Shown one piece after another: positions 3,728 through 25,781 of a stretch of DNA of 37,455 bases. Under the pieces are notes generated by a model. The model did no database searches. It saw only the letters and a list, made by a program, of their open reading frames with translations, and was not told where the DNA came from. The DNA comes from Candidatus Izemoplasma sp. GTDB lineage: Bacteria; Bacillota_I; Bacilli_A; Izemoplasmatales; Izemoplasmataceae. Numbering within the stretch: the first letter of the stretch is position 1; the number at the start of each line of letters is the position of its first letter. Location of the stretch: positions 1 to 37,455 of the forward strand of contig SKGE01000022.1 in assembly GCA_007117625.1 (NCBI GenBank). Reading direction: 5' to 3'. A program made the position numbers and the translations under genes.

Positions 3728-4179
3728 TTCGAACCTCCTAACACTTTAACCATATAGAGCGCATCTTCACCATTTTTATAGTAGTTTACACGCTTACGAA
3801 CCACCTCAAACCCTAACGATGCATATAGTTTAATCGCTGCCTGATTACTCTCACGAACCTCTAAACTCACATGTAAGCAATCGTGCTTCAACCCAAAGTC
3901 AATCAAATGAAATAATAAGAACCGTCCAACCCCTTGCCTTCGAACGGTTTCATCCACCACAATATTCATAATATCAATATTTTCCCCTGTTAGCCAACAC
4001 CCAACATAGCCAAGGATTTTCCCATCGACTTCAGCCACAAATTGATGCGCCATCAGATTCTCAAAAACCTCATATCTAAGATGTTTCCCAGTAATTGGCT
4101 GATCAAAATAACGACGTTCCAAGGCAACCACATCATCGATGTCTGTGGCTTTAATCTCCCGAACCTTAATCGGTAACAT
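3724..4179 (-). CDS. rimI: Ribosomal protein alanine N-acetyltransferase RimI (GNAT)
   Basis: [15 protein letters not shown] (acetyl-CoA loop), [29 protein letters not shown]; start taken at MLPIKVREI rather than the longer ORF start at 4233; overlaps tsaD by 4 nt. Confidence 0.92.
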
Positions 4180-4909
4180 CTTGAAAAGCACCCGAGCTGC
4201 GATTCGATAGCTTATAAAGCACCATATGCGCAATGTAAATCAAAGAAACTAAAACACCTAGATAAAGAACATGGTTGCCGAAAATCCTTTCGACATGTTC
4301 AGGAATATGCGTAATAAACCAATAATTCACAACCGTATCACCACTCACCGTAGATAAAACAAGATTCAAGTTATAAATCACCGGAGCTACTAATAAAGCC
4401 ATAACAAAGGTTTTATACGTAGCTCTACGCGTCACACGAAACTTATAAGCTCGGTAATAGTAAAGCGGAATCATAATAATCGTCATATGGATTAAAATAA
4501 AATGATGGTATCGTATATTATAATAAGGGAACCCATAACTAAAAGGAACCATTAACGCCATAAATCCACCGAGAACCCCAAAAAAGAAAACATACTCAAA
4601 AATCCGTTGAGAATTTGTCTTTAACAGCGCCAAGTTCATAATCACCGCAAAACTACATATGTGAAGCGGTAAAGAAAACACACCGTTATACCAGTTGTGC
4701 ACATGATAAATAATCTCAAGAATCAACAGCCAGATAAAAGCAATATTGCGGATTTTCCGCTCATACTCAGAGTTATAAATATTCTTAGAAAACTGTAACG
4801 GCAAAAAGATTGCTAAAATAGCAAATCCAATCAACATATAGTGATGCCATGAAAACAAACGAACACTTCGTTCAAAATCAATCACATAGCCAAAAAAGTT
4901 TTCCCACAT
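4166..4909 (-). CDS. TIGR02206/YwaF-like integral membrane protein
   Basis: About 6 TM segments, N-terminal FSWHHYMLIGFAILAIFLPLQF and LPLHICSFAVIMNLALL pattern typical of TIGR02206. Confidence 0.72.
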   Translation of the reverse strand: MWENFFGYVIDFERSVRLFSWHHYMLIGFAILAIFLPLQFSKNIYNSEYERKIRNIAFIWLLILEIIYHVHNWYNGVFSLPLHICSFAVIMNLALLKTNSQRIFEYVFFFGVLGGFMALMVPFSYGFPYYNIRYHHFILIHMTIIMIPLYYYRAYKFRVTRRATYKTFVMALLVAPVIYNLNLVLSTVSGDTVVNYWFITHIPEHVERIFGNHVLYLGVLVSLIYIAHMVLYKLSNRSSGAFQDVTD

Positions 4910-10261: not shown

Positions 10262-10504
10262 TTATAACCGTTTTAAAACAAAGAACGGAGCATTTGGCGT
10301 TGCTGATTCCATCAAATAGTCAGAAATCATATGCTTATTCTCTTCAGAAAAACCTTTTAAACGTAACATTTCAGAACTCACATCGCCTACAATATACACA
10401 TAACGATCTAAATAATCCACATAGCGCTCATTAAAAGTCTTAATGTCCAACGCCTCACGATAGTCCTTAATCAACTCAAAATTCCCATGTTCTGTCTCAA
10501 TCAT
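10262..10504 (-). CDS. YutD-like (DUF1027) protein
   Basis: FNERYVDYLDRYVYIVGDVSSEMLRLKGFSEENK...FFVLKRL resembles YutD; also sits close to nfu/pgpA homologues as in the B. subtilis yut region. Confidence 0.72.
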   Translation of the reverse strand: MIETEHGNFELIKDYREALDIKTFNERYVDYLDRYVYIVGDVSSEMLRLKGFSEENKHMISDYLMESATPNAPFFVLKRL

Positions 10505-10983
10505 ATCTTCACCTTCTCGACTAACAGCACCGTCTCACAAACAATCGCCTGCGACGTCCCAACGATACCAATTTTCTCTCCTGTCGTAGCTTTAACACTA
10601 ACCAAATCAACCGAAATATTCAACAGCATTGCAATACTTTTTCGAATCGCCTCAATAAAACTGCGCAACTTCGGTTTTTCTAAAAACACCATCGAATCAA
10701 TGTTCACAACACGATAGCCATGATTCAAAACCAAATCATATGCATAACTCAAAATTTCTTTCGAATCCAACCCTTTGTTCGCAGCATCAGTATCTGGGAA
10801 GTGGCTCCCCAAATCCCCTAAAGCCAGCGATCCAAGGAATGCCTCAGCAATACTATGCAACAAACAATCGGCATCACTATGCCCAACACTCTTTAAATGC
10901 GACGGAATCAAAGTGCCCCCCAAAATCAATGCCTCGCCTGGTTCTAATCGATGAATATCAGTACTATGTCCAATCCGCATCAT
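10501..10983 (-). CDS. ispF: 2-C-methyl-D-erythritol 2,4-cyclodiphosphate synthase
   Basis: RIGHSTDIHRLEPGEALILGG, SVGHSDADCLLHSIAEAFLGSLALGDLGSHFPDTD. Confidence 0.96.
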   Translation of the reverse strand: MMRIGHSTDIHRLEPGEALILGGTLIPSHLKSVGHSDADCLLHSIAEAFLGSLALGDLGSHFPDTDAANKGLDSKEILSYAYDLVLNHGYRVVNIDSMVFLEKPKLRSFIEAIRKSIAMLLNISVDLVSVKATTGEKIGIVGTSQAIVCETVLLVEKVKI

Positions 10984-11624
10984 TGTAAAATCAATCCCAA
11001 CAAATCTGCATCATCTGGTGTTGTGAACTTAATATTCTTCCGACTTCCAAGCGCCATCTGAACAGAATAATGCAATACCGAACTGACCAAACTAGCATCG
11101 CAAGTAAACACTCTCCCTGCAACTTTGCTGTAAGCTTCTAACAACAATCTACGATCAAACGCTTGCGGTGTTTGCACCAACACCAAATCACGGCGATCGA
11201 CATCTTCAATAAACATGGCATCTTTCGTACGTTTAGCGGTTTCATAAACAGGAATCGCCAAACTTGCTGCCTTGTTTTGAACCACAGCCTCTTTTAATCC
11301 CTCTAAACCCGGAATAAAAGGTCTTGCCCCATCATGAATAAAAACATACTCAGAACTTGCAACCTCTAAACCTGCACAAACACTCTCTTGCCGAGTGACA
11401 CCACCAGGGACAATATGTTCAACACTATCCCCAAACCGTGCTTTCATTAAATCCAAGTCTCTTCGGTGTGTAACGAGAATAATCTCACGACAATCATCAT
11501 CACCTTCAAAAAACTCTAAAACATAATCAATTAGCGCTTTCCCATGAATTTCATACAAAACTTTATTGTGCGGTAATCCACTTCGAATCCCCACACCACC
11601 TGCAACAATAATCGCTGAATACAT
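10980..11624 (-). CDS. ispD: 2-C-methyl-D-erythritol 4-phosphate cytidylyltransferase
   Basis: MYSAIIVAGGVGIRSG, VFIHDGARPFI, RDLVLVQTPQAFD, KFTTPDDADLL; start at MYSAI rather than the longer ORF start. Confidence 0.95.
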   Translation of the reverse strand: MYSAIIVAGGVGIRSGLPHNKVLYEIHGKALIDYVLEFFEGDDDCREIILVTHRRDLDLMKARFGDSVEHIVPGGVTRQESVCAGLEVASSEYVFIHDGARPFIPGLEGLKEAVVQNKAASLAIPVYETAKRTKDAMFIEDVDRRDLVLVQTPQAFDRRLLLEAYSKVAGRVFTCDASLVSSVLHYSVQMALGSRKNIKFTTPDDADLLGLILQ

Positions 11625-11628
11625 GCCA

Positions 11629-12168
11629 TCACTCTCCATAAATCCGTTGATCGGTAACCACCAAATCAACTGCAATATCGTGTGTCTCAACAGGAATACT
11701 ATCAATCACAAACAAATCAAAACAAACACCGATCTTCAACCCCTCATACTTCGAGAGAAACGAATCATAATATCCTTTACCATAGCCAATTCTATAATGA
11801 TTTTTATCATATACAATCCCCGGTACCACAACAACCTCTAAATCCGACATTGACACAGCCTCATCATGATCTGGAACGGTCGTATTAAACGGCGCTTTTT
11901 GATAACTTCCCCGATCCTCATAAAAGACAATCTCATCCTCGACAATCTTCGGTAAATATAACGTATACATTTCACCCAAATCACGTAAATCTACCTCGTG
12001 ACGCATCGGATAAAAAACTGCAACATGCTCAACGTTTAACCGTGCTAAATAGTCTTTTAAACGTGCTACCAACATGGTGTTAAACAGCGTATACATTTTT
12101 TCATCTAGCATATCACGGCGCTTTAAAAACGCCTTTCTTAAGGTCTTTTTATCCAACCTATCACCCAA
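11629..12168 (-). CDS. 5-formyltetrahydrofolate cyclo-ligase
   Basis: KKTLRKAFLKRRD..., VAVFYPMRHEVDLR, VVVPGIVYDKNHYRIGYGKGYYDSFL, DLVVTDQRIY. Confidence 0.93.
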   Translation of the reverse strand: MGDRLDKKTLRKAFLKRRDMLDEKMYTLFNTMLVARLKDYLARLNVEHVAVFYPMRHEVDLRDLGEMYTLYLPKIVEDEIVFYEDRGSYQKAPFNTTVPDHDEAVSMSDLEVVVVPGIVYDKNHYRIGYGKGYYDSFLSKYEGLKIGVCFDLFVIDSIPVETHDIAVDLVVTDQRIYGE

Positions 12169-13306
12169 TTATAAAATAGTTTTCATGCGTATCCGTGCTA
12201 ATCGCAATATCAAGCGCTTTTTTATTGCGTCCAAGCACCTCATCCAAAGGTTCTTCAAACATCGTAATTTTCTGAATCCCAAAGTGTGGATAAACACTCT
12301 CATGTACTCCACCAAACTTCATCTCAAAATTCAGAAGATCACCACCATGTTTTAAAGCTCTTTCTAAAATATTGAACTTGCGCTCATCTTTAATTACCAT
12401 CGCAAAACGAATCCCAGTTAAACGAAACATACTATGCTCATCTTTAACAAAATTATACCGGAGCTTATTAATGAACTCCCCCATCATTAAATCACCAATA
12501 TCTCGTCCATACTTATCGTTCATCGCAGGAATATTAGATAGCTCAAACATCACCACATAATAAGGTACCTTGAGCCTATTTAAGCTTTGTAGATACTCCA
12601 TAAAAGCATGATCAATCTTCATTTTATTTAAATAATCAACCTCAGTCTCTGGATACACCAAAACATCAATACTTTTCGTCATCGAAATAATCATTGTATG
12701 GCCATCATAAAAAATAACCGTACCCTTCTCCTTCAACCAAACATATTGATTTCCTTTCTTAAAACGATAACTCATCTCATAAACCGGACTGCTTTTCTTC
12801 AATTTAGACAACGCAGCTTGATACCCAGTAATATCATCGGGGTGAATGTGTTTCATAAAGCGCTGTTGGGTAAACTCATTATCTTCAAACCCAATGATTC
12901 GAATAAATCTGTCGGTCCCAAACATATTCCCATCATCACTTCGAAACACCAATCCATCTCTTAATAAATCAATCGTAGCAATAAATCTTTTACGCAGCGA
13001 CTCATACCCAGAAAGAATATTTTTATTCTCTTTACGCAACTGTTTAAGCGCCGCACCTTGAGAATGACTTCTTAAAAGCAGTGATGGCTCGAAAAAAAAC
13101 AAGCTAAATAAGAAGCCCCCATAAACCATCCATGATAAAATAGCAATATCAATGTCATAAACTTCAATGATTTTAACAACAATATAAGCTACTGTAGCTG
13201 CTAAAAACAACAAACTTTCAAAAACAACTTTACGCGCTTTGACACGCTTAATCAGCAACAACAAAAACCACGCAGCTAACACAACAACAATTTCCATTAC
13301 AAGCAT
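12161..13306 (-). CDS. Membrane protein with N-terminal TM domain (CdaA-like by eye), PAS domain and degenerate GGDEF domain
   Basis: TM region (AAWFLLLLIKRVKARKVV...ILSWMVYGGFLFSLFFFEPSLLLR), PAS/PAC-like (RFMKHIHPDDITGYQAAL...YRFKKGNQYVWLKEKGTVIF), GGDEF fold with NDKYGRDIGD but TGIRF in place of GG[DE]EF. Confidence 0.85.
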   Translation of the reverse strand: MLVMEIVVVLAAWFLLLLIKRVKARKVVFESLLFLAATVAYIVVKIIEVYDIDIAILSWMVYGGFLFSLFFFEPSLLLRSHSQGAALKQLRKENKNILSGYESLRKRFIATIDLLRDGLVFRSDDGNMFGTDRFIRIIGFEDNEFTQQRFMKHIHPDDITGYQAALSKLKKSSPVYEMSYRFKKGNQYVWLKEKGTVIFYDGHTMIISMTKSIDVLVYPETEVDYLNKMKIDHAFMEYLQSLNRLKVPYYVVMFELSNIPAMNDKYGRDIGDLMMGEFINKLRYNFVKDEHSMFRLTGIRFAMVIKDERKFNILERALKHGGDLLNFEMKFGGVHESVYPHFGIQKITMFEEPLDEVLGRNKKALDIAISTDTHENYFIIG

Positions 13307-13324
13307 GCCATAGCCTCCTTAAAT

Positions 13325-14059
13325 CTAATTTTGAAGATACTTCTCTAAATATAAAACAAGTGACTCTTGACTAATATCTTGATCTAAATACCCATCAACC
13401 GCAACACTAATAAACCCCGTTTGCTCACTGATAATAATTGTTAAAGCATCCGTCACTTCACTAATCCCAATCGCTGCACGATGTCTTGAACCCATATGTT
13501 TTGGGATATCTGGGTTTTCACTTGGAGGGAAGTAAGTTCCCGCACACACAACCTCATTACCCTTAATAATCACAGCGCCATCATGAAGCGGTGTCTGAGG
13601 CACAAATATGGTCGATAACAACTCTGCCGTTAACGGCGCACGAATCTGAAACGCTGTACGAATAAAATCTTCTAACGTCACCGCACGTTCAAACGTAATC
13701 AACGCACCAATCTTTCTTTGTGATAAGTACGTAACACTTTTTATCAACTCTTCTTTAACCGATTCTTCAATCGTATTCGACAGTAATAATCCTGTTTTCA
13801 CACCAATTGACTTGAAGATTAAACGAATTTCAGTTTGCACCATAATAACAACAACAAAAATAAGTGGTATAATCTTAACAAGCAACACAACATCAAACGC
13901 ACTCGGATCGATCACAACTTCTCGAACAAGCAAAACAAAAAGCACAACCACAAACAGCTTTAATGTGCGATAAATATTCATGTTCGTCTTCTGCTTGACC
14001 AAGGTTGTGAAAATCGCTAAAAGATACATATTAACTATTAATACATCAAAAAAATCCAT
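13325..14059 (-). CDS. cdaA: Diadenylate cyclase CdaA (DAC domain)
   Basis: PLHDGAVIIKG (DGA), MGSRHRAAIGISE (RHR), SEQTGFISVAVDG; N-terminal TM helices; start at MDFFDVLIV with upstream GGAGGGG. Confidence 0.94.
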   Translation of the reverse strand: MDFFDVLIVNMYLLAIFTTLVKQKTNMNIYRTLKLFVVVLFVLLVREVVIDPSAFDVVLLVKIIPLIFVVVIMVQTEIRLIFKSIGVKTGLLLSNTIEESVKEELIKSVTYLSQRKIGALITFERAVTLEDFIRTAFQIRAPLTAELLSTIFVPQTPLHDGAVIIKGNEVVCAGTYFPPSENPDIPKHMGSRHRAAIGISEVTDALTIIISEQTGFISVAVDGYLDQDISQESLVLYLEKYLQN

Positions 14060-14294
14060 AAAACCCCTCCAGCAATACAAAGCTGACAAGCTATCTAAAT
14101 TATAACACACATAAAATGTTTTTTAACACACCCTAGATAATAAATAAACGCCTCAATTAAAACAACAAAAAATAATCCACCAATGAAACCGCATAACATA
14201 AATCTTTCATAGTCTCATTCAAATGTCAAGGCTACACATAAAACTTAACATACCATATAATGAACTTTAAAAGAAATTCTTTGGAGGTAATAGT

Positions 14295-16826
14295 ATGAAA
14301 TCTTATTCAAAAGCACTGATCGAAAGACTCAACGAGGATATCACATCCCACTTCAAACACCTATACCCGATCACTGAAAATATGACCCAAACGTTAGAAG
14401 GTGTTTCAAGACTTGTTATGCTTGATCGATATACCCAAAAAGATCTTACCTTGAAAACCCTTAAAGAAGGCGATTTAGTCATAACCATCGTAAAAGACGA
14501 CCCGAAGTTCCCAGCACGTGGTATCGGTAACGTCAAGGCAATTAACGGCGATACCATCACCATCCAAGTTGAGGCCGAATCGCTCGCAACCACTGAAGAC
14601 GCTGATAAAGACGGTTGTATCAAACGAAACATCCGTCAGATTGATAAACCGCTCGAACTCTATTACGAGCAAATTGCCAAACGCTTAGCCAATCACCTCG
14701 GCGAAGACGAGAGTGACGCGGTAAAAGAAGCCTTTTACCATGAAGTCGCAAGCCAAAACCTCGTCCCTGCTGGCCGCGTTTTATTCGGTGCTGGTTCAAA
14801 CACCAACGTAACCTATTTCAACTGTTTCGTCATGCCATTTATTCACGATTCACGTGGCGGAATCAGCGATCACCGGAAACAAGTCATGGAAATTATGAGT
14901 CGCGGTGGTGGTGTCGGAACCAACGGTTCAACATTACGTCCAAAGAATGCTTTAGCCAAAGGTGTTAATGGAAAATCCAGTGGAGCCGTCAGCTGGTTAC
15001 ACGATTTATCTGAACTGACCCATCTCGTCGAACAAGGTGGATCACGTCGTGGCGCACAAATGATCATGCTTGCAGATTGGCATCCTGACATTATTGATTT
15101 TATCATCTCAAAGATGCAAAACCCGAAAATATTACAATTCCTTATCGATACCTTAGAAGACCAATCGATTGTAAAAGCCGCAAAGAACAAACTCAAATTT
15201 ATTCCGCTTAGCGACGAAGAAGTGGAAATCAACGAATACATACTAGAACAATCAAAAAGCAACCCAGATCAATTCTCAAAACGTATCGTAGATGCAGCCT
15301 TTGAACGTTTAAACAAAGGTGGCCATTATGAAGTTAATAATTCAGAATTTTTAAGTGGAGCAAACATCTCAGTCGCAATCACCAAAGAGTTCATGCAAGC
15401 CGTTGAAAACAACGAAGACTACCCGTTAAGATTCCCTGATATCGACAACTACAACGACGAACAAAAAGCCATCTACGATGAACAATGGATGCATGTTGGT
15501 GACGTGCGTGAATGGGAAAGCATGGGGCTTCCAGTCAAAACCTATAGAACCATCCCTGCAAAAGAACTTTGGAATCTTATCAACATCTGTGCAACCTATT
15601 CCGCAGAACCAGGTATCTTCTTTATCGACAATGCCAATGAAATGACCAATGCTGTCGGATACGACAACAAAGTCGTCTGTACAAACCCGTGTGGTGAACA
15701 ACCACTCGCACCATACTCAGTTTGTAACCTTGCAGCACTCAACCTTGCAAACATGGTCGATCATACCACCAAAGATGTAGACTGGAAAAAACTCGAGAAA
15801 ACCATCAAAACGGCTGTACGCTTACAAGATAACGTCATCGATAAAACCCATTACTTCTTAGAAGAAAACAAAGCCCAAGCTCTCGGTGAACGTCGCGTTG
15901 GACTCGGCGTCATGGGACTCCATGACTTACTGATTTGGTGTAACCGCAAATACGGCGCAAAAGATGGTATCGAACTGATCAACAAACTCTTTGAATTCAT
16001 CGCCACAAAAACGTATGAAACAAGTATTGAAATCGCCAAGGAAAAAGGACCATTCCCATTCCTTAAAACCCATCAAAACAGAGAAAAATTACTCAATAGT
16101 GGATACATGAAAAAAATGCCCGCACATATTCGTGAAGGCGTTAAAAAACACGGTATCCGTAACTCACATCTCTTAACCATCGCTCCAACAGGGTCGACCG
16201 GAACCATGGTAGGTGTTTCAACAGGCTTAGAACCTTACTTCGCATTCAGCTATTTTAGAAGTGGTCGTTTAGGTAAATTTATCGAAGTAAACGCTCCAAT
16301 CGTCGATAAATACTTAGAAGCCTATCCAGGCTTCACCAAAGACACATTACCAGAAACCTTTGTCAGCGCCATGGAGCTCTCACCTGAAGCTCATGTTGAC
16401 GTGCAGTGTACTATACAAAACTGGGTAGACTCATCAATCTCTAAAACCGTTAACGCCCCAAAAGGCTACTCGGTTGAAGAAGTTGAACAGGTCTATCAAC
16501 GTCTCTATCGAGGCGGAGCCAAAGGTGGTACCGTTTACGTCGATGGATCTCGTGATGCACAAGTATTAAGCCTCACAAGAGAAGATGATGAAAAACCGAG
16601 AAAACCAAAACAAGTTGGCATCCAAGACCTTGGCGTTGAACTTGAAGAAGAGAAAAAAGAGCCAAAAGAATCAAAAACCAAAGGACTCCGTAGTGACCGA
16701 CAAGACAGAAACATCGGTGTCGAAGCCGGAGATATCTGCCCAATCTGCCTTGAAGGCACCGTTGAAAACCTTGGCGGGTGCCATACCTGCACGAATTGTA
16801 ACGCACAATTAAAATGTGGTTTATAG
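14295..16826 (+). CDS. nrdJ: Adenosylcobalamin-dependent (class II) ribonucleotide reductase
   Basis: VPAGRVLFGAGSNTNVTYFNCFVMP, SRGGGVGTNGSTLRP, NPCGEQPLAPYSVCNLAALNLA, C-terminal Zn-ribbon CPICLEG...CHTCTNC. Confidence 0.94.
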   Translation: MKSYSKALIERLNEDITSHFKHLYPITENMTQTLEGVSRLVMLDRYTQKDLTLKTLKEGDLVITIVKDDPKFPARGIGNVKAINGDTITIQVEAESLATTEDADKDGCIKRNIRQIDKPLELYYEQIAKRLANHLGEDESDAVKEAFYHEVASQNLVPAGRVLFGAGSNTNVTYFNCFVMPFIHDSRGGISDHRKQVMEIMSRGGGVGTNGSTLRPKNALAKGVNGKSSGAVSWLHDLSELTHLVEQGGSRRGAQMIMLADWHPDIIDFIISKMQNPKILQFLIDTLEDQSIVKAAKNKLKFIPLSDEEVEINEYILEQSKSNPDQFSKRIVDAAFERLNKGGHYEVNNSEFLSGANISVAITKEFMQAVENNEDYPLRFPDIDNYNDEQKAIYDEQWMHVGDVREWESMGLPVKTYRTIPAKELWNLINICATYSAEPGIFFIDNANEMTNAVGYDNKVVCTNPCGEQPLAPYSVCNLAALNLANMVDHTTKDVDWKKLEKTIKTAVRLQDNVIDKTHYFLEENKAQALGERRVGLGVMGLHDLLIWCNRKYGAKDGIELINKLFEFIATKTYETSIEIAKEKGPFPFLKTHQNREKLLNSGYMKKMPAHIREGVKKHGIRNSHLLTIAPTGSTGTMVGVSTGLEPYFAFSYFRSGRLGKFIEVNAPIVDKYLEAYPGFTKDTLPETFVSAMELSPEAHVDVQCTIQNWVDSSISKTVNAPKGYSVEEVEQVYQRLYRGGAKGGTVYVDGSRDAQVLSLTREDDEKPRKPKQVGIQDLGVELEEEKKEPKESKTKGLRSDRQDRNIGVEAGDICPICLEGTVENLGGCHTCTNCNAQLKCGL

Positions 16827-25130: not shown

Positions 25131-25781
25131 TTATGTATTCTTTCTAATTTGTGGTTTCATAAACTTTTCATTTAAAACAATCGCTAAGCCTATCATCATT
25201 GCCGTTCCAACTAAAATAATAATCCCGCTCACCATCCAAAAATTACTTGGCAACAGCATAATCAAAACATCATCACTTCGCAAAATCCAATCGTCATTAT
25301 CAAAAAGCAATAAATGAAACCACGTAAAAATCCGACCAAAATCAATCAAAAACCAAGTTCCAACAAACACTAAAAAACCTAAAGGTAACCAAAAAATATT
25401 TCGATACGTATCATAAAACGCTCGCTTATTAACTTTAAACAAAATAATCGAAACCGACACCACAAATAGCAAACTCACCAAAGCGATTCCTCGCAACAAC
25501 GTATACACATCGCGAACATCCACCATATGCCTAATCTCAATATCCCGCATTAAAACTGAATCATCTTCTGCGTTCGCGCCAAACTCCAAATCATCATGGC
25601 GATAATTTAAATAATCAATCAACTGTCTCGCCACATAATCATGATCATACTCAATCAAATCATGCGAAGCATAGAGCCCCTTAGACATACGCATATAAGG
25701 ATTGCTCGTCAACAAAGACGCAAAAAGCATTAACGCAACCATCGTAAAGGCAGCCGAAAAAACAACTCTCAGAACAACCAT
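25131..25781 (-). CDS. TIGR01906/DUF1461 family integral membrane protein
   Basis: EIRHMVDVRDVYTLLRGIALVSLL flanked by several TM segments; typical of TIGR01906. Confidence 0.75.
   Translation of the reverse strand: MVVLRVVFSAAFTMVALMLFASLLTSNPYMRMSKGLYASHDLIEYDHDYVARQLIDYLNYRHDDLEFGANAEDDSVLMRDIEIRHMVDVRDVYTLLRGIALVSLLFVVSVSIILFKVNKRAFYDTYRNIFWLPLGFLVFVGTWFLIDFGRIFTWFHLLLFDNDDWILRSDDVLIMLLPSNFWMVSGIIILVGTAMMIGLAIVLNEKFMKPQIRKNT

Follow-up and report, generated by a model that had tools for sequence, protein, structure and literature searches.

A membrane PAS-degenerate GGDEF protein encoded beside cdaA in Izemoplasmatales: a candidate alternative module for the control of c-di-AMP synthesis

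In Bacillota, c-di-AMP is made mainly by the synthase CdaA. Control of its output is known mainly via CdaR, by membrane contact, and GlmM, by oligomer inhibition, both of which are tied to the envelope. In the YbbR (CdaR) genomes that we examined, cdaA is followed by cdaR, with glmM next in many of them. The locus described here carries a different gene behind cdaA, and literature searches (open-licence papers) brought up no account of a PAS-GGDEF protein as partner of CdaA.

The window, i.e. the whole stretch of DNA analysed, comprises 37,455 nt of a Candidatus Izemoplasma sp. genome (contig SKGE01000022.1). A cultured member of the order Izemoplasmatales has no distinct cell wall (PMC8397711). 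The analysed genome (1.42 Mb, 90% complete) contains one DAC gene in all, as judged by a genome-wide PF02457 search. The features of the locus are listed below, with the 381-aa protein referred to as the partner.

10501..10983, minus strand: ispF (our family assignment from sequence; conserved neighbour)
10980..11705, minus strand: ispD, the start may lie further downstream (our family assignment from sequence; conserved neighbour)
11629..12168, minus strand: 5-formyltetrahydrofolate cyclo-ligase (fthC), overlapping the partner by 8 bp (PF01812, E 2.5e-29; same place in many relatives)
12161..13306, minus strand: partner, 3TM-PAS-degenerate GGDEF, 381 aa (Pfam; orthologues in the order, homologues across the class)
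12209..12628, minus strand: degenerate GGDEF domain of the partner, residues 227-366 (PF00990, E 2e-8; catalytic residues missing)
12404..12418, minus strand: TGIRF in place of the GGDEF signature, residues 297-301 (alignment of order sequences)
12680..12922, minus strand: PAS domain of the partner (PAS_3), residues 129-209 (PF08447, E 5e-11)
13085..13306, minus strand: membrane region at the N-terminus of the partner, residues 1-74, with three hydrophobic segments within residues 1-72 (hydropathy)
13307..13324, minus strand: intergenic gap of 18 bp between cdaA and the partner, with the AAGGAGG Shine-Dalgarno sequence of the partner at 13320-13314 (sequence)
13325..14059, minus strand: cdaA, predicted membrane diadenylate cyclase, three TM segments and DAC, 244 aa (PF02457, E 7e-40; TIGR00159; Shine-Dalgarno GGAGG)
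13388..13741, minus strand: DAC catalytic domain of CdaA (PF02457, E 1.5e-40)

The first-pass annotation of this DNA had described an intact CdaA followed 18 bp further on, on the same strand, by a membrane PAS-GGDEF protein, which Pfam, TIGR00159 and the coordinates confirm. The best start of cdaA is the ATG at 14059 with GGAGG in front of it, where it had been placed before; the mechanical ORF list puts the start further out, at a GTG (14110). CdaA scores 187.9 bits (E 2e-55) against TIGR00159 and thereby falls just under the cut-off of 188.8. The DAC motifs previously recognised by eye (DGA, RHR and SEQTG type) are backed by the PF02457 match, and the D-G and R-H-R columns are invariant in the alignment of CdaA relatives. 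Neither YbbR nor glmM had been seen behind the pair, and downstream of the partner we indeed find the genes for 5-FTHF cyclo-ligase, IspD and IspF instead; the larger block thus reads cdaA-partner-fthC-ispD-ispF. A locus of Candidatus Izimaplasma CSBr16_79 shows 78% identity in the partner protein, which places the analysed organism in the Izemoplasmatales. A search with Rfam returned no RNA element within positions 11000-15000.

Two further genes of the window are recorded as side observations. A membrane protein of the TMEM164 family, which takes its name from a eukaryotic protein, is encoded at 4166-4909 on the minus strand (PF14808, E 1e-27). A protein of the Lit family (lipoprotein intramolecular transacylase) is encoded at 25131-25781 on the minus strand (PF07314, E 8.5e-25), in a wall-less order.

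The Pfam scan of the partner gave nothing C-terminal to the GGDEF domain, hence no DHH/DHHA1, in agreement with the earlier reading of where the protein ends. YbbR repeats (PF07949) gave no match in the protein either. Its signature stands in the context R-L-TGIRF, and all 57 order sequences share G-I at the second and third positions of the signature. PF00990 is matched above its gathering score, which might point to an active diguanylate cyclase lying beside cdaA by chance. However, in an alignment of 76 sequences, longer homologues included, the family members lack the metal-binding Asp and 75/76 have Ile or Leu at position 3 of the signature, whereas 7/7 cyclases of the analysed genome retain this Asp as well as the acidic residue of the signature. 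In 71/76 sequences Arg (position 268) stands where cyclases have the His of the GH motif. Judged from these residues, the domain is predicted to be catalytically dead throughout the partner family; the non-enzymatic nature proposed in the first-pass annotation gains support accordingly from a whole family, and we regard an active cyclase as very improbable.

The partner had also been likened to the sensory half of GdpP, and its domain order equals that of the GdpP N-terminal half (TM-PAS-GGDEF without DHH/DHHA1), as would be the case for a truncated or decayed GdpP. This likeness does not extend to the sequence models: PF21370 (PAS_GdpP) and PF24898 (GGDEF_GdpP) found no match in the partner at E 1, while a complete GdpP (PAS_GdpP, GGDEF_GdpP, DHH, DHHA1) on another contig of the same genome matches both together with DHH-DHHA1. 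Moreover, 58 of the 61 order genomes have a separate GdpP match above the family cut-off, the partner left aside, and the length of the partner is stable over the whole order. A decayed GdpP is hence hardly credible, and the comparison with a GdpP-like half had to be given up. As an aside, this GdpP of the analysed genome (L134:3355-5781, minus strand) continues in frame into ribosomal protein L9, its C-terminal end matching Ribosomal_L9_N and L9_C; across the order the GdpP ORFs measure about 810-840 aa, a size that suggests this fusion to be general among them.

In true GGDEF domains a conserved Asn contacts the purine base. This base-contact Asn (N263) is retained in 73/76 family sequences; the Arg before the signature is kept as well. 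Since the Asn is kept and the catalytic residues are lost, selection seems to act on the fold and on part of the nucleotide pocket, though not on catalysis, and the PAS domain and/or the dead GGDEF domain may bind a ligand. The partner could therefore be a degenerate receptor for c-di-GMP or another nucleotide that acts on some other membrane target or connects the c-di-GMP network with the synthesis of c-di-AMP; this second variant overlaps with a role as CdaA regulator. Degenerate GGDEF domains elsewhere serve as nucleotide sensors, and about 15 strong GGDEF domains in the analysed genome imply that c-di-GMP is probably made. On the other hand, the conserved Arg268 (His in cyclases) together with Ile/Leu at position 3 does not amount to a recognised c-di-GMP site. 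We consider such a receptor possible, though rather unlikely.

The AlphaFold2 model of the single partner sequence was poor (pLDDT 39). A motif in the membrane region of the window protein (FEPSLLLR) raised the idea that this region duplicates CdaA_N. The lack of conservation of the motif counts against the idea, and hhalign of the ortholog profiles gave a probability of 0.3%; the idea was rejected.

Conservation was assessed in 61 Izemoplasmatales genomes (the analysed genome and 60 relatives). An orthologue of the partner is present in 59 of them, which makes a chance ORF far-fetched, and a DAC gene in 52. YbbR was found in none of the 61, the analysed genome included, by a search that was positive in the B. 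subtilis and L. lactis controls; a conventional cdaR elsewhere in the genome, which would have spoken against the first-pass annotation, is thus neither seen here nor in the 60 relatives. The commonest layout in the order is cdaA, a gene for a ~770-aa FAD-binding-like protein, the partner, (fthC), ispD and ispF. The ~770-aa protein (L075-L131, e.g. L086:5103-7415) matches FAD/NAD-binding models weakly and has membrane segments at its C-terminus, and no Pfam family fits it. Its gene is missing from the locus in the genus of the window and a few others, where cdaA abuts the partner, and searches of five genomes of this genus did not find it elsewhere either. Direct adjacency of cdaA and partner may for this reason be secondary within the order; the linkage itself is not.

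Counting only loci with enough flanking sequence, cdaA lies upstream of the partner on the same strand in 28/29 loci of family f1, 13/13 of f3 and 0/6 of f2. The sole f1 exception has a DAC gene directly upstream according to a separate DAC search and had been missed by the ORF caller. Counted likewise, ispD lies downstream of the partner in 27/33 (f1), 12/13 (f3) and 7/7 loci (f2). As fthC, ispD and ispF share in the linkage, simple stasis of the operon may account for part of it. This leads to the main rival of a CdaA-related function: the partner would be carried along in an ancient, frozen cdaA-partner-fthC-ispD-ispF operon, or be related to ispDF, with a role of its own, e.g. as a receptor or as a regulator of ispD-ispF or folate genes. 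In favour of this explanation, ispD/ispF are found downstream in most flanked loci, somewhat less often than cdaA upstream. Family f2 speaks for it as well, by keeping partner-ispD-ispF without cdaA in 7/7 genomes (G037, G039, G041, G043, G045, G047, G049). No DAC gene was found in these seven genomes, two of which are at least 96% complete; either their cyclase has diverged and escaped the search, or c-di-AMP synthesis is lacking. Unless such a cyclase exists, the partner has a CdaA-independent use in f2. A GdpP is present in 5/7 of the f2 genomes.

The opposite case is seen as well. In group g5 (four genomes) cdaA, the FAD-like gene and the partner are kept together although the local ispD and ispF are gone, and several f12 genomes outside the order keep cdaA-partner with no nearby match to ispD or ispF. 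Both count against a mere bystander, as do the exclusion of CdaR and the altered CdaA membrane domain described below. Weighing both sides, we think a bystander role doubtful, yet worth keeping in mind.

At the level of the class, 395 genomes were searched with profiles for the partner family and YbbR. The partner family occurs in 105 genomes, about a quarter, of which 53 lie outside the order; both counts include two f10 genomes (G100 and G109). G100, the one that was read, turned out to encode a GGDEF-EAL protein instead of the same gene, and both f10 matches are probably other GGDEF proteins. Outside the order the form is mostly ~525 aa long with TM, two PAS domains and a GGDEF domain predicted to be dead. 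A fusion of DAC and partner was considered for the 530-aa homologues and dismissed, the extra N-terminus being TM and a second PAS domain. In 49 of the 53 family-bearing genomes outside the order the partner gene comes immediately after cdaA; among loci with enough flanking sequence cdaA is upstream in 15/16 and ispD downstream in 16/19. The survey of relatives called for by the first-pass annotation accordingly shows a linkage conserved across the class. That the partner occupies the CdaR position holds for the window and for these 49 genomes, but not for most of the order, where the FAD-like gene intervenes.

Additional small genes were noticed between cdaA and the partner. A single-TM protein of 55-65 aa is encoded in a ~200-bp gap at 33 loci (E 1e-13 to 1e-23; L170-L178, L181-L185, L189 and L199-L227 of f12, f16 and f22, some being overlapping copies of one genome); it was not found in the Izemoplasmatales loci. 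It is possibly a third member of the module. At three loci (L179, L180, L186; f5, f18) this place is taken by a gene of 119-127 aa that, judged by eye, resembles methylglyoxal synthase.

Of the 395 genomes 117 carry YbbR, and not a single genome has both YbbR and the partner family, where 31 would be expected under independence. One genome of f18 with YbbR (G334) was set aside as contamination: its CdaA groups with f13, its contamination is 6% and it has three DAC hits. The CdaA tree implies approximately two changes between the partner and the YbbR state, with one also possible. As so few events suffice for the swap, the 0/395 exclusion is not statistically independent; it is an old lineage difference and not 105 independent observations.

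The CdaA enzymes differ between both states. CdaA_N (PF19293) is matched by 25/27 YbbR-type CdaAs and by 0/50 partner-type CdaAs, the window CdaA reaching 10.2 bits (cut-off 23.8), while DAC is matched by all 77 CdaAs scanned. The N-termini of both types are still homologous by profile comparison (97.7%); hence the membrane domain has diverged and was not replaced. The contact of CdaA and CdaR was reported to lie in the membrane region of CdaA (PMC8573169). That this region diverged precisely in the lineages with the partner agrees with a switch of partner, although general drift could be the cause instead.

Taken together our data suggest that the partner is a regulator of CdaA, a membrane PAS-dead GGDEF sensor which would be co-expressed with CdaA and replace CdaR. 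We assign this reading a probability of roughly 0.55, and by genome comparison the arrangement is probably a real alternative CdaA control module, for which the locus is a candidate. The central proposal of the first-pass annotation comes out stronger than one window alone could tell: a CdaA-linked role is favoured by the linkage, the YbbR exclusion and the differing CdaA membrane domain, while strict dependence on CdaA is contradicted by f2. Regarding the mechanism, we infer contact, ligand and direction of effect as follows. The PAS domain and/or the dead GGDEF domain, with the base-contact Asn kept and the metal site lost, would bind a small ligand. The ligand-induced change would be transmitted via the linker and the membrane segments to CdaA, whose oligomerisation and thus c-di-AMP output might be altered.

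More tentatively, and at somewhat less than even odds, the family may represent a second, undescribed way of CdaA control, in which a membrane PAS/dead-GGDEF receptor stands in for CdaR, and for the connection to cell-wall synthesis through GlmM, in CdaR-less, partly wall-less lineages, with the small membrane genes as accessories in some families. c-di-AMP would then be tied to an intracellular ligand and not to the envelope. If true, a class-wide alternative partner with a sensor domain would show what replaces control where CdaR is missing. It would also offer a testable route from ligand to cyclase in a family of more than 100 genomes of our sample, with culturable members in other families.

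Four described systems are closest to the locus. In CdaA-CdaR-GlmM of Bacillota, cdaA is likewise followed by the gene of a membrane-anchored protein without known enzymatic activity; here this protein has PAS and a putatively dead GGDEF instead of YbbR repeats, no glmM comes next and the CdaA membrane domain is diverged. PAS-GGDEF diguanylate cyclases share PAS_3 and the PF00990 GGDEF domain with the partner by sequence, but the partner family has lost the metal-binding Asp and the acidic residue at position 3. CdaM of Mycoplasma also synthesises c-di-AMP in a wall-less lineage without CdaR. It has a single TM segment and forms a separate class (PMC5508000), whereas the enzyme of the window is of the CdaA type (TIGR00159, 187.9 bits vs 129.1 for CdaM). 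GdpP, finally, has the same order of TM, PAS and non-catalytic GGDEF as the partner, which differs by the missing phosphodiesterase half and the missing matches to the GdpP models, with the true GdpP encoded separately.
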